Assembly (NCBI GenBank): GCA_025174535.1
Contig: JALBUN010000023.1
Location: forward strand, 3,658,001-3,722,000
Direction: 5' to 3'
DNA length: 64,000 nucleotides
DNA from: Cantharellus purpuraceus
Lineage: Eukaryota; Basidiomycota; Agaricomycetes; Cantharellales; Hydnaceae
The position numbers and the translations under genes are program-made. This document shows, piece by piece, positions 59,773 to 64,000 of the stretch; within the stretch, counting starts at the first letter, position 1; each line of letters begins with the position of its first letter. The notes beneath the pieces are model-generated. The model did not search any database and was not told the origin of the DNA. It was given only the letters and a program-made list of their open reading frames with translations.

Positions 59773-60470
59773 GGCCCCAATATTGAAGCCCATTGATGTC
59801 AATAACCCCAATACTATTTGGGTTATTACTGACAGCTCCAAAACTGGAGTCAGAGCCATCTATGGACAAGGAAAAGATTGGCAGACCTGTCAGCCTGCCA
59901 GATTCCTATCCAAGAAATTTAGTGCTGCACAACAGCACTATAAGACCCACAAGCATGAGACTATAGCTGTGCTTGAAGCCCTAATGAGATGGGAAGATAA
60001 GCTACTAGGATGAAAGTTTGTACTAGTAACTGACCACAAGGGTCTCAAATACTTCAAGACCCAAAAGAATCTGTCTCCTAGACAGATTAGGTGGTGGGAG
60101 TTCTTATCCCGTTTCAACTTTACTACCCTGCATATAGACAGGGGTGGAGAACAAAGTAGTGGATTGTCTATCGCGCTACTATGCTGATGACTCCCCAACA
60201 GAGAGTCATCCCAACTACATCTACATAAATGCAGATGTATGTCTTGACCCTGAAGGAGAACTGCTCCCCACAGAATGGTTTGTTGAGATCAGGACAGCAG
60301 CAGTCACCCAAAGGCAACTGCGTGAGAAAAAAGAAAACAGAGTGCTAGAAGCTGAAGCACTCAATGTTCAAACAGAATCATTGAATGATGATTCTAATTC
60401 CTCTAAAGAAATAGAGGATGTTGGAGTGATGTCATCAGATGATGATAGAACACCATTGTGATCCCATGTC
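59773..60470 (+). pseudogene. G4 RNase H and linker (copy d)
   Basis: KPIDVNNPNT, ITDSSKTGVRAIYGQGKDW, ARFLSKKFSAAQQHYKTHKHE, EALMRWEDKLLG, then (after TGA 60011) LVTDHKGLKYF and RQIRWWEFLSRF. A one-base shift near 60135 leads to NKVVDCLSRYYADDSPTESHP. It continues the G4 pol interrupted at 22132. Confidence 0.85.
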
Positions 60471-60483
60471 GAGCATGGGATCA
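60459..60483. repeat. 10-bp perfect hairpin in G4 pol (copy d)
   Basis: TGATCCCATG, 5-nt loop, CATGGGATCA. Neighbours include AGAAAGGA/TCCTTTCT (60513-60533), AGGTGCT/AGCACCT (60535-60551), GATGACTC/GAGTCATC (60186-60210) and CTATGACTAC/GTAGTCATAG (60884-60909). Confidence 0.95.
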
Positions 60484-61790
60484 ACCTCATGCAGATTGTA
60501 CAAGGCACATATAGAAAGGATACTGTCCTTTCTAAGGTGCTGGAAGCACCTAAAGAACATGCACAATTTGGTGTGCATGATGGTCTAATACCCTGCTCAG
60601 CATTCCTGAAGGGGAGGAAGCTGGTCGAGATAATAATCAACCATGCACACCAAGTAGTTGGCCATTTTGGTCAACTAAAAACCGCAAATTACATTTGACG
60701 GTCATACTGGTGGCCAGGCATGACCACTGATGTCAAATCATTCTGCACTTCATGCGCAAAGTGCCAAATGAATAAAGACAGTACAAAGAAACCCACAGGG
60801 CTTCTTCATAGCTTGCCAGTACTGGAACAGCCCTGGCAATCGATAGGTATGGACTTTATGGGTCCATTACCAAAATCAAATGACTATGACTACCTACTGG
60901 TAGTCATAGATCGCTTCACATCACAGGTACATATAATACCTACAAACACACATGTAACAGTGAAAGGAGTAGCATGGCTATTTCTTAAAGAAGTTGTATG
61001 CCTTCATGGTGTACCAGACTCGATCATGTCTGATCAAGATTCAAAATTCATATCTATCTTTTGGTGTGAACTACAGTGGATAATGGGAGTGAAACTCCTC
61101 ATGTCTGAGATAGGTATTCGGACCATCGGACTTGTCTCTGGGTGAGCAGTTTCGTTGTGGAGAAGTATTCCAAGTTCTTGTGGTCTGTTATGACATCCAC
61201 CGGATCGGAGGGACCTTCGAGGTAGTGTCTCCATATCTGGAAGGCTTCATATATGGCAAGGAGCTCTTTGTCATGGACGTGATAGTTCAGTTCAGGGGGC
61301 ATAAATGTACGTGAGTGAAAAGCAATTGGATGGAGTGTTCCATCTGCAAACGGATGGAGCAACAGAACAAGTGAATCATTCCATTGGCCAAATACTTTGT
61401 ACCATTGTATGAAGTGATCAGAAAGATTGGGCACACAAGTGTCCAATGGTGGAGTTCACACTAAACTCCAACATAAGCTCAACAACAGGGTTTACTCCAT
61501 TTGAGCTTAACTACAGGTATATGCCTAGAATAGGCATGCCCATTAACAATGACACCAAGTTCAAGGGTGTCAAACAATTCACACAGCAGGCTCAAATGAA
61601 CCTGCTAGCGATGCATGATGCAATTATAGAAAGTCATGTTGTTCAGACATTCCATGCCAATAAGAAATGTCAGGAAGGTTCAACCTTCCAGAGAGGTGAC
61701 AAAGTCTACCTCTCAATGAAAAACTTAACTCTACCTAAGGGTAGAACCAGCAAACTAGTGCCCAGGTATATCGGGCCCTTGTTACATCCT
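60471..61790 (+). pseudogene. G4 integrase (copy d)
   Basis: Zinc-binding H-H-C-C (HQVVGHFGQLKTANY then CTSCAKC), core Asp in SIGMDFMGPLP (near 60853), second Asp in IMSDQDSKF (near 61027), and Glu in DGATEQVNHSIGQ (near 61352). Then comes FTPFELNYRYMPRIGMP and the C-terminal FQRGDKVYLS. A stop at about 60697 and another near 61411 break it. A 230-bp G1 piece sits at 61106-61336. Confidence 0.85.
61106..61336 (-). pseudogene. G1 RNase H fragment inside G4 integrase
   Basis: Minus-strand HPIAFHSRTFMPPELNYHVHDKELLAI to LTQRQVRWSEYLSQ, lacking LTRs or target duplications. It sits between LLMS and FHLQTDGATE of G4, where other integrases are continuous. Confidence 0.85.
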
Positions 61791-62516
61791 GTAACACCAA
61801 GTCTGAACTCTGGACCTCCATCTCCTTCATCTCCATCCCTGACAACTCCACCTCCATCAACTCCACCTCCATCAACTCCACCTCCATCAACTCCACCTCC
61901 ATCAACTTCACCTCCATCAACTCCATTATTGTTCTCTTTATAGTTTCTTCTTATGGGTTACAACAAACCTTCTTCTTTTATATTGTTTAGTTCAGTTCAG
62001 ACTTGGGTCCAAACTCCAAACTCCTTTCCATGTTGTACTCCATATCCATCTTATTGTCTTATTGTTTTAGTTTCAGCATTCAATTCTCCACATACTTATA
62101 CAGGCTACTCTCTGTCTATTACAATAGTTCATATATCAACTAAGATTTGCCCCATTAACTTCTTGGTTGCTAGCTTCTTGACAAGTACCTTCTTGACAAG
62201 TTGAACTCTGGATCCCTGATCCAACTCCATACTCCAAACTCCAAAATATTGGACTGACAATCTGAGGGGGCACAACACACAAGTTGAAGCCAAGTCCACT
62301 CAATCCAACTCAATAGTATTGCTCTTACTCTGTCTCCAGTTGAACTAGAACAGTAAAGTCCCATCTCCCTCTTTACTAGCAGCCAAACTCCAGCTCTTTT
62401 CCATTGAACCCTGAGTTGTCCCAGACCTTAACAGCCCTATAAAATAATTAAAGCCCATAATAAAGCTTTGACAGTGACACTGGAATTGCCATCAGAACTG
62501 ACTAGTAGGTGCATTA
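61791..62516 (+). mobile_element. Solo LTR-like insertion in G4, with minisatellite
   Basis: Starts TGTAACACC after the G4 codons for LLHP and ends near GGTGCA, before TFH-SLI of G4. The right edge and the duplication are uncertain (TTACATCC versus TTATGCC). A 15-bp minisatellite (CCATCAACTCCACCT) occupies about 61849-61925. The stretch near 62265 (CACAACACACAAGTTGAAGCC) resembles the G1 LTR, so this may be a related family. Confidence 0.6.
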
Positions 62517-62790
62517 TGCCTACATTCCACATCAGTCTCATTTGACTGTATGTGCCGAATGATGAGGTGAGATTCCTGAAACAGGAAGTGAAGTCATTTT
62601 ACAACTTTGGGAATGATAACAAGCAGGAGTGGCTTGTCAATGAAATCATCACTCATTGATGGATAAGCAATAAAGAACTTGAATTTCAAGTTCTATGGAC
62701 GTTGGGAGACATCACCTGGGAACCTTACATGTCATGTAAGGATCTAGAAGCTCTAGACGATTATTTAGAACTTTGAGGGGTGACTCAAGT
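62517..62790 (+). pseudogene. G4 chromodomain (copy d)
   Basis: YVPNDEVRFLKQEVKSFYNF, then EWLVNEIITH, stop, WISNKELEFQVLWTLGDITWEPY, a chromodomain-like end of pol. The in-frame TGA near 62656 is where Arg is expected. It makes G4 a second chromovirus-type element. Confidence 0.75.
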
Positions 62791-62792
62791 GT

Positions 62793-63074
62793 GAGAACTA
62801 CCTCATAGACAGTAGTTCTCAGAGAGATGGAGCCTCAAAGATCTAATGGGGCTCAAGGGGGAGAAGTGGAGCTACCAAGAATAAAGGTAGCTCCTAGCAG
62901 GATGCGACAAAGAGCTACCATCAATGATGGTAGCTCAACAAGGGGAGGAGGAACTACCTTGATTAAATGGTAGTTCCTAGATAAGGATAGAGCTACCATA
63001 ACAATAGGCAGCTTGATGGTAGAAAAAACTGCTCCCATAGGGAGCAGTTCACTGTTGTGCTACTCATAGTAGCA
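62793..63074 (+). repeat. Array of perfect hairpins after G4 pol
   Basis: Successive stems: GAGAACTAC (62793-62820), GGAGCTACC (62868-62894), GAGCTACCATC, 11 bp with a 3-nt loop (62912-62936), AGGAACTACC (62949-62978), AACTGCTCCC with a 3-nt loop (63027-63049), TGCTAC (63058-63074). Four share a (G)A(G/A)CTACC core. It lies in the non-coding stretch between pol and the next ORF. Confidence 0.93.
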
Positions 63075-63214
63075 TGAAAGGGGTAAGTGATAATTAATCA
63101 CATTACACCCATGTGACATAGTCACTGGAAAAATTCTCAATAAAGAATTTTCAAGCTCAGCCATAGAAGGCTAGCAGTGTTTCTTCGAACCACCACAACC
63201 CCCCCCCCATCAAA

Positions 63215-64000
63215 ATGTCATCTCTCAGAAGGGAGACAATGGATGCTCAGGACAAGCATCCAATGGAAGTTGAACAAACTTCCACAGTGGCAGCACCAGT
63301 AACAAGTGCTGCAGATATGATCAGGGGTTATCAAGATGAGATGACCTGGAAAATTGGTGGATGGCATGGTGGCACTGCCATCCATCACCCTCATGGGTGC
63401 AATGCATATGTGTCACACTTAATCGAGGCCCAAAATGGAGGCTGACTATATCTTTCCACCACTTTGGTGGAAAGAGCATTAAGAGTCACATGGCCATGAC
63501 TTATACATGACATTGAAGATGATGTCGCAACACCTTATCATGAAGACTATGATAAGATGTACAAGGATAACTTGGACCTGTTTGCACAGGTCCAAGAACT
63601 CAAAGGACTTCTTGACAATGAGAAGTCCAAAGTAACTCGTCTCAGAGACAAGTTAAAAAAACTGAAGGAGGCTGCTGATAGAGCACCTCTTACATTCAAG
63701 ACCAAGCTCATGATGGTGCACTTGGCCCCAGTAGCATCGCTATCACATGCTATGGCAGGCAAATCATTGCCTGCCATTATGCTATCACAGCCCATGGCTT
63801 CATCGTCATGGGAAACAATCGATCTCACCAAAGAGGGTGATCGCCTGAGCAAATTGCCTCAGGTTGACCCTCAAACCCTCAAGGGTCAAGATTGGGATGA
63901 CACTGACCCAATCTGGGAGGGATACAACCACAATCATGGTCTCCTCCTGGCTAGCATCCCTAAGGGTGCTAAGCAACCAGGCAAACTCAAAGAGTTTGCC
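63215..64000 (+). pseudogene. Unidentified G4-linked ORF, runs off the window
   Basis: After a C-run comes ATG 63215, MSSLRRETMDAQDKHPMEVEQ, with a stop at 63443-63445. The same protein seems to continue (after TGA and a shift) as DIEDDVATPYHEDYDKM, a coiled-coil stretch VQELKGLLDNEKSKVTRLRDKL, then IDLTKEGDRLSKLPQ and KGQDWDDTDPIWEGY. I do not recognise the family; the coiled coil and position suggest an accessory element protein, or the gag of a following element. The stretch is among the most hairpin-dense in the window: TCTTTCCACC (63451-63475), CTTGGACCTG (63571-63596), ATGGCAGGCAA (63752-63777) and GGCAAACTC (63980-64000), each with its complement. Confidence 0.55.

Follow-up and report, generated by a model that had tools for sequence, protein, structure and literature searches.

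Long terminal repeat (LTR) retrotransposons of the Ty3/gypsy group, including chromovirus-like elements such as yeast Ty3, share their plan with G4, an element represented by several pieces in a 64,000-nt stretch of the Cantharellus purpuraceus genome (GenBank assembly GCA_025174535.1, contig JALBUN010000023.1, positions 3,658,001 to 3,722,000; the whole stretch is hereafter called the window, and positions are counted from its first letter unless another locus is named). G4 is a multi-copy LTR retroelement of the Ty3/gypsy type, with a Ty3-type capsid, reverse transcriptase (RT), RNase H, an integrase with a Tf2-1-like SH3 domain, a polypurine tract and an LTR. Unlike Ty3, it carries a third open reading frame (ORF3), estimated at ~620 codons (the translated-through copy, L026:1476-3442, contains stops), and neither this copy nor the piece at 63215-64000 matches a Pfam family above cut-off. 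In every part of G4 that was sampled, short perfect hairpins follow one another in a chain. In yeast Ty3, the study by selective 2'-hydroxyl acylation analysed by primer extension covers, in its accessible portion, six short palindromes at the 5' end and no genome-long hairpin chain (PMC11381356).

Genome-scale ordered RNA structure is known from some RNA viruses, with predicted duplexes that never exceed 11 bp and energy differences of up to 16% (PMC3950689; statements on these viruses refer to the accessible portion of that paper). As in G4, excess folding energy extends along the genome, coding sequence included, and helices are short. Most of the viral duplexes are longer than 8 bp, whereas the median arm is 7 or 8 bp in 45 of 70 G4 stems, and G4 differs further in being a retroelement with perfect stems and some inverting loops. 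Template-switch-maintained RNA hairpins, in which, as in G4, perfect arms enclose inverted loops and carry paired changes, are described from rRNA (ribosomal RNA) genes and assigned to DNA replication (PMC8794818, again for its accessible portion); G4, in contrast, is a mobile element, and its two-state loops recur across many copies. Clusters of palindromes in the LTRs of maize Sireviruses also place short hairpins in an LTR retrotransposon, but there a common motif occupies the LTR cis-region and is linked to small RNAs, whereas differing hairpins run through both the LTR and the coding sequence of G4 (PMC10760457, citing Bousios et al. 2016, in the part of the text available). The hairpins of G4 are not confined to one motif in the LTR cis-region, being present in its gag, pol and ORF3 pieces too. 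The literature searched, which leaves out most subscription journals, lists no retroelement described as having hairpins throughout its coding region.

On balance, we think it rather more probable than not that the hairpin chain of G4, shared by two lineages of the element, is kept by purifying selection on a folded single strand, with template switching acting on the hairpins.

Hairpin density and geometry

Hairpins were scored as perfect inverted repeats, and densities as non-overlapping counts (arm at least 8, loop 2-12) against 100 dinucleotide-preserving shuffles. Across five G4 stretches the density is 4.5-12.7 hairpins/kb, 31-46 times the shuffle mean, and in all five the observed count lies above every one of the 100 shuffles: 27 hairpins at 59773-64000 (shuffle mean 0.72, max 5), 10 at 63215-64000 (0.22), 9 at 2.7-4.7 kb (0.29), 22 at 22.1-26.2 kb (0.72) and 16 at 52.0-54.25 kb (0.35). 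The original prediction of dense perfect hairpins across G4, coding sequence included, is thus confirmed. The nine hairpins that it listed in the end region all lie where it placed them, although those at 63451 and 63571 have arms of 11 bp, not 10; a tenth, of arm 9, lies at 63980-64000. Its chance estimate for 8-bp arms was about right (0.62 per 4.2 kb at arm at least 8, loop 2-10).

Such dense hairpins had further been said not to be seen in G1 pol, G2 pol or the host genes. At arms of at least 8 no excess is seen there: the control G2 pol has none (shuffle mean 0.44), two G1 pieces have 0 and 1 (0.19 and 0.30), the copia control has none, and neither does the host stretch at 40-50 kb (1.3), so that the density of G4 is matched by neither G1 nor G2. 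At arms of at least 7 the absence is not wholly clean, with 3 hairpins in one G1 piece (mean 0.62, max 3). The non-G4 stretch at 5-20 kb shows a mild, 2.6-fold excess at this arm length (24 hairpins against 9.4, max 15, 20 shuffles).

Codons were also shuffled among identical amino acids (200 shuffles per piece, arm at least 7). Counts similar to those observed were not reached by these same-codon sequences in gag (7 hairpins, mean 0.58, max 3), ORF3 (5; 0.47, 2), integrase (5; 0.52, 2) or RNase H (4; 0.34, 2); the RT piece is weaker (3; 0.46, the best shuffle also giving 3), and at arms of at least 8 the integrase pieces hold 0 and 1 hairpins, with no or little excess. The highest control is G1 gag (3; 0.80, 4). 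Chance or base composition as the source of the hairpins is ruled out by the dinucleotide and codon shuffles together. Hairpins are spaced at a median of 54.5 bp in G4 (seven copies), no codon frame is preferred by the stems (17, 19 and 16 of 52), and Rfam gave no match at gathering score for 59700-64000.

Clusters of at least four hairpins (arm at least 8) were surveyed in 262 kb, comprising the window and 20 loci picked for holding G4, one of which (L027) overlaps the window end. The 43 clusters include 42 with a match to G4 pieces, although for two the match extends over no more than 55% and 67% of the cluster; several match themselves, as window pieces and L010 were part of the query set, and the remaining cluster is a 20-bp tandem repeat. 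Because almost all clusters match G4, and two stretches inside the window copy hold no hairpin, a host process acting equally on all DNA is unlikely.

The geometry of the hairpins was taken from seven copies of the G4 3' part, which share ancestry and whose counts are not independent. Arms of 7, 8, 9, 10, 11 and 12 bp number 105, 70, 46, 30, 13 and 1, with 8.4, 2.0, 0.2, 0.2, 0 and 0 expected, and no arm of 13 bp or more was found among them (loops 3-11). A strong excess is seen for apparent loops of 1 and 3-10 nt and a smaller one for those of 11-19, and those of at least 20 are near background. The 70 stems seen in at least three copies, each counted once, give a similar picture; the longest arm is 12 bp in three and 13 bp in one, and the helix limit of ~11 bp holds but for these four. 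Capped arms and capped loops fit single-strand folding better than sites in duplex DNA. It is very improbable that the inverted repeats are protein-binding or cruciform sites selected as double-stranded DNA: the perfectly Watson-Crick pairing and the GAGCTACC/GGTAGCTC array repeated in the untranslated stretch at 62785-63010 would suit such sites, but spacers are capped near 10 nt as hairpin loops are, the hairpin sequences, compared by eye, vary from one part of the element to another, and several hairpins occur with the loop in either orientation.

Conservation of the arms and inversion of the loops

The G4 copies compared comprise a family A and a sister lineage B, the latter with nine loci, ~22% different from A and carrying 8-13 hairpins of arm at least 7 per kb. 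Two loci retrieved as lineage B (L045, L048) proved A-like and were counted with A, and gag loci L057-L061, considered as diverged outgroups, were rejected as decayed or partial copies of the G4 family. Copies of family A differ chiefly at CpG-type columns (43% pairwise, a value inflated by the choice of these columns for being variable) and by only 3.7% elsewhere, on which grounds they resemble the decaying products of a recent burst, with most of their hairpins apparently inherited. Differences between G4 copies are mostly of the CpG to TpG/CpA type, pointing to methylation of the G4 family.

The comparison of A with B spans ~1 kb; its stems were called from A only, and reliance is placed on non-CpG columns or between-lineage counts alone. 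Among the 216 A-defined stem pairs, 150 are testable in B and 144 of these are still Watson-Crick, three via a double change. Fixed non-CpG differences between the lineages fall on 14/311 arm columns, 14/89 loop columns and 49/354 of the rest (arms vs rest, p 3e-5), so that arms differ 3-4 times less than non-arm columns. At codon positions 1, 2 and 3 the differences are 4/103, 1/104 and 5/88 in arms and 12/101, 6/103 and 20/84 in the rest, the contrast at third positions having a p of 9e-4. Over this ~1 kb of aligned sequence, arm conservation is evidence of constraint, which suggests that the hairpins matter. Covariation within family A was set aside as evidence, since much of its double-change signal stems from CpG decay. 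The double changes at non-CpG columns that retain pairing (95-99%) are no evidence alone, because two transitions in a pair always re-pair.

A loop was counted as inverted where some copies carry the exact reverse complement of its centre, differing by two or more transversions. Inverted centres occur in the 3' part at 5/73 stems vs 6/7293 other centres (4/7291 when two off-centre echoes of one of the five are left out), in the A+B set at 3/26 stem centres vs 3/1980 others (two of the three being echoes), and in gag at 1/10 vs 0/1090. Genome-wide loop counts were obtained by a pattern search with free loop letters, which sees only copies with perfect arms. The ORF3 hairpin GGCAAACTC-AAA-GAGTTTGCC (63980..64000, plus strand, arm 9) has AAA in 32 and TTT in 15 copies and no other loop (n=47); the gag hairpin CTGCAATC-CAAG-GATTGCAG (25143..25167, minus strand) has CAAG in 43 and CTTG in 4 and no other (n=47); and an LTR hairpin, found with perfect arms 116 times genome-wide, has ATA in 75 and TAT in 25 of the 100 occurrences listed, and no other. 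In a further hairpin, with a 10-nt loop (63864..63889, plus strand), the centre is GGGT in 13 and ACCC in 3 of 23 copies, the window holding the minority (ACCC) orientation. The flip between AAA and TTT exchanges Lys and Phe in ORF3; both states occur in both lineages, and parsimony places seven changes on the tree, a scatter that could also come from recombination between copies or from an uncertain tree. As fully inverted loops are a published footprint of template switching (Monttinen and Loytynoja, PMC8794818, accessible portion), these inversions show that template switching happens at G4 hairpins.

Among the causes first proposed for the hairpins was a copying process in which template switching repeatedly makes imperfect inverted repeats perfect. 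Switching does act on them, as the excess of inversions at stems (5/73 vs 6/7293) and the two-state loops attest, but the perfecting of arms as sole cause is unsupported, with one clear multi-base gain of a perfect stem within family A, in L015. We consider it unlikely that such a mutational drive produced hairpins without function. Exact loop inversions at several hairpins, the L015 gain and the lack of a wobble preference would all be in keeping with it, but stem gains inside family A are rare (stem observations with at least two non-CpG pairs broken in the commonest state number 2/717, and 7/392 in the A+B set), and upper limits on arm and loop are not predicted. By argument, moreover, conversion between arms, if unbiased, copies mutations across as often as it erases them and would not lower the mutation rate of arms, yet arms differ 3-4 times less; switching alone therefore fails to explain the constraint.

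Folding, strand and the form under probable selection

Predicted RNA folds have z-scores of -6.2 for ORF3 (63215..64000; -5.6 on the other strand), -6.7 for the untranslated stretch 5' of it, -7.4 for gag and -4.1 for the LTR, and of -1.0 and 0.6 for the controls G2 pol and a host gene. In a scan by 250-base windows with 20 dinucleotide shuffles, the mean folding-energy difference is 37% (131 windows, 10 copies) and 29% (33 windows) in two G4 parts and -1% in controls (40 windows); z falls below -3 in 112/131 and 22/33 of the G4 windows and in 2/40 of the controls. These 29-37% top the 16% table maximum given for RNA viruses, which was obtained with 300-base windows and 50 shuffles (PMC3950689, accessible portion). 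Because the excess folding energy and the helix limit of ~11 bp match genome-scale ordered RNA structure, RNA is favoured as the selected form.

Under purifying selection on a folded single strand, most likely the genomic RNA, hairpins would be kept, with helices held at ~7-11 bp and loops at no more than 10 nt, and template switching during copying would flip loops whose arms are perfect, perhaps also restoring pairing. The likeliest benefit would be a compact genome RNA without a helix long enough for enzymes that process double-stranded RNA or carry out silencing, a shielding that has been proposed for the genome-scale ordered RNA structure of some RNA viruses. We infer that RNA is the selected form, that this is its benefit and that reverse transcription, not host DNA replication, is the step at which switching occurs.

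Several results weigh against purifying selection on a folded genomic RNA. The original suggestion of selection for a hairpin-coated genome gains from arms conserved 3-4 times more, third positions included, and from the narrow size class, but the deep comparison covers ~1 kb, with lineage B copies that are themselves decayed, and its short non-coding part shows no extra conservation of arms (4/16 vs 11/66). Within family A arms and rest do not differ significantly (27/732 vs 86/1657 for shared variants, p 0.12), as expected if most variants post-date insertion; the absence of constraint would give the same. All G4 DNA comparisons come from one species. Among the inverting loops, a fourth hairpin was inverted in none of 42 copies (ATCA in 38, three other forms in 4), the 10-nt loop has neither orientation in 7/23, and loop inversion does not require reverse transcription, since the 69 rRNA-gene cases in which only the loop is inverted are ascribed to DNA replication (PMC8794818, accessible portion). 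The control G1 has excess folding energy, of 7.9% in five gag windows and 12.7% in two pol windows, whereas controls other than G1 give a negative difference. The antisense strand folds almost as well as the sense strand (34% vs 37%). Selection on sense RNA should favour G.U pairs, and their lack of preference over A.C in near-perfect stems counts against it (12 vs 11 non-CpG column pairs; further counts are 19 vs 24 for all column pairs and 24 vs 18 for stems, and another places A.C above G.U).

The near-equal folding of both strands, the lack of a G.U preference and loop limits that suit any single strand would also be expected if the hairpins were selected in single-stranded complementary DNA (e.g. 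for strand transfer or plus-strand synthesis) instead of RNA. We judge this improbable, as the sense strand folds slightly better in 85/131 windows (not independent) and 20/33, and as loops have weak sense-strand biases, being slightly A-rich (bootstrap 0.028) and ending in A (loop-end asymmetry p 0.011), hints whose weakness tells against selected genomic RNA as well. A bolder proposal builds on selection for a folded genomic RNA: G4 may be the first retroelement in which selection maintains, over the entire genome and thus also its coding sequence, a chain of about a hundred hairpins of limited size (a number projected from the density in the sampled parts), where template switching in its own copying flips loops and helps to keep arms perfect, and where structure and mutational process each strengthen the other and protect the RNA from host silencing. 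This we regard as possible, though more doubtful than not.

Architecture of G4 and its pieces in the window

In the 40.15 Mb (50 contigs) searched for G4 copies, matches number at least 40 or 41 each for ORF3, LTR and gag (40 scored of 135, 427 and 151 candidates), and twenty ORF3 copies were retrieved and compared. The domain DUF6534 (PF20152), a marker of mushroom-forming fungi, has 9 matches in this genome, 8 of them above cut-off, and none in 14 control genomes. The order of the element, assembled from overlapping copies, is LTR tail, ~1.3 kb leader, gag, RT, RNase H, integrase, chromodomain-like end, untranslated stretch, ORF3, polypurine tract (AAAAAGGGGAGGG) and LTR (starting TGTAAGTACC), with RT and RNase H preceding integrase. 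The positions of gag and of the LTR in a single copy on contig C1 put its length at ~9.4 kb. Evidence for the LTR comes from separate copies, with the 3' LTR and polypurine tract in L010 and the LTR tail 5' of the leader at 54270-54301. Pfam matches include the Ty3-type capsid in gag (PF19259, E 3.5e-8, 24905-25456, minus strand), RVT_1 (5.8e-9), RNase H (8.3e-16) and SH3_Tf2-1 (4e-12); the integrase C terminus resembles a chromodomain by eye, but for 61 aa of open frame from a copy of lineage B Pfam gave no match. Proteins related to ORF3 (12, covering 34-86% of the query) and to gag (49-73% identical, among 120 listed of 124) are present in jgi and ena assemblies, and no DNA of G4 relatives was found in viral and prokaryote contigs. 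The AlphaFold model of one ORF3 relative, P0124, is too poor for use (predicted local distance difference test score 38).

On the plus strand, 59773..64000 was originally taken to be G4 throughout; this does not hold, since ~61113-61340 and 61780-62433 are hairpin-free. The G4 sequence there comprises the RNase H and integrase part (59773..61112; 13 hairpins of arm at least 7, 9 of arm at least 8, loop 3-11), the integrase C-terminal part (61341..61779; five arm-7 hairpins in 61413-61781, none of arm at least 8), to which L010:553-972, matching the Tf2-1-like SH3 domain, is related, the chromodomain-like pol end with the untranslated stretch (62434..63214), and ORF3, cut by the window end. No hairpin of arm at least 7 was found in 61100-61345 or 61781-62431, both stretches tested inside this copy. 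The first hairpin-free stretch, 61113..61340 with limits set by eye, is probably a foreign insert, and the second, 61780..62433, reads as the solo LTR of another element because of its TG...CA ends and the GCCCT on either side. On the minus strand lie a G4 5' part with LTR tail, leader and gag (52000..54301; 25 hairpins of arm at least 7), a gag-to-pol piece that includes the capsid domain (22100..26200; 40) and an RT/RNase H piece (2700..4700; 14).

Within the untranslated stretch 5' of ORF3, about five related GAGCTACC...GGTAGCTC hairpins form the array at 62785-63010, which is also found in the lineage B copy read. A recurring end, TGTTAYGCACTAGGTC, is present at 59757-59772, 21581-21596, 26749-26764, 2767-2782 and 50415-50430 (three exact, two with one mismatch) and in 12/61 loci, and adjoins TTGGAGGTTGGG-type repeats at 59620-59755; several of these ends lie in or beside G4, and the motif looks like the terminus of an LTR from a different element, one frequently lodged in G4. 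A perfect tandem repeat of 13.8 copies, its 20-bp unit containing a palindrome, occurs at a G4-copy locus (L012:3625-3900).

A hairpin-covered G4 may represent a new way by which a mobile element shapes its own genome. Genome-wide RNA structure is debated in RNA viruses, where its purpose is unknown and hard to isolate. In G4 a stronger form is carried by a mobile element with more than 100 LTR copies, beside retroelements largely lacking hairpins, and its origin and cost are thus testable by comparison, with the two-state loops serving as a countable record of template switching at retroelement hairpins.

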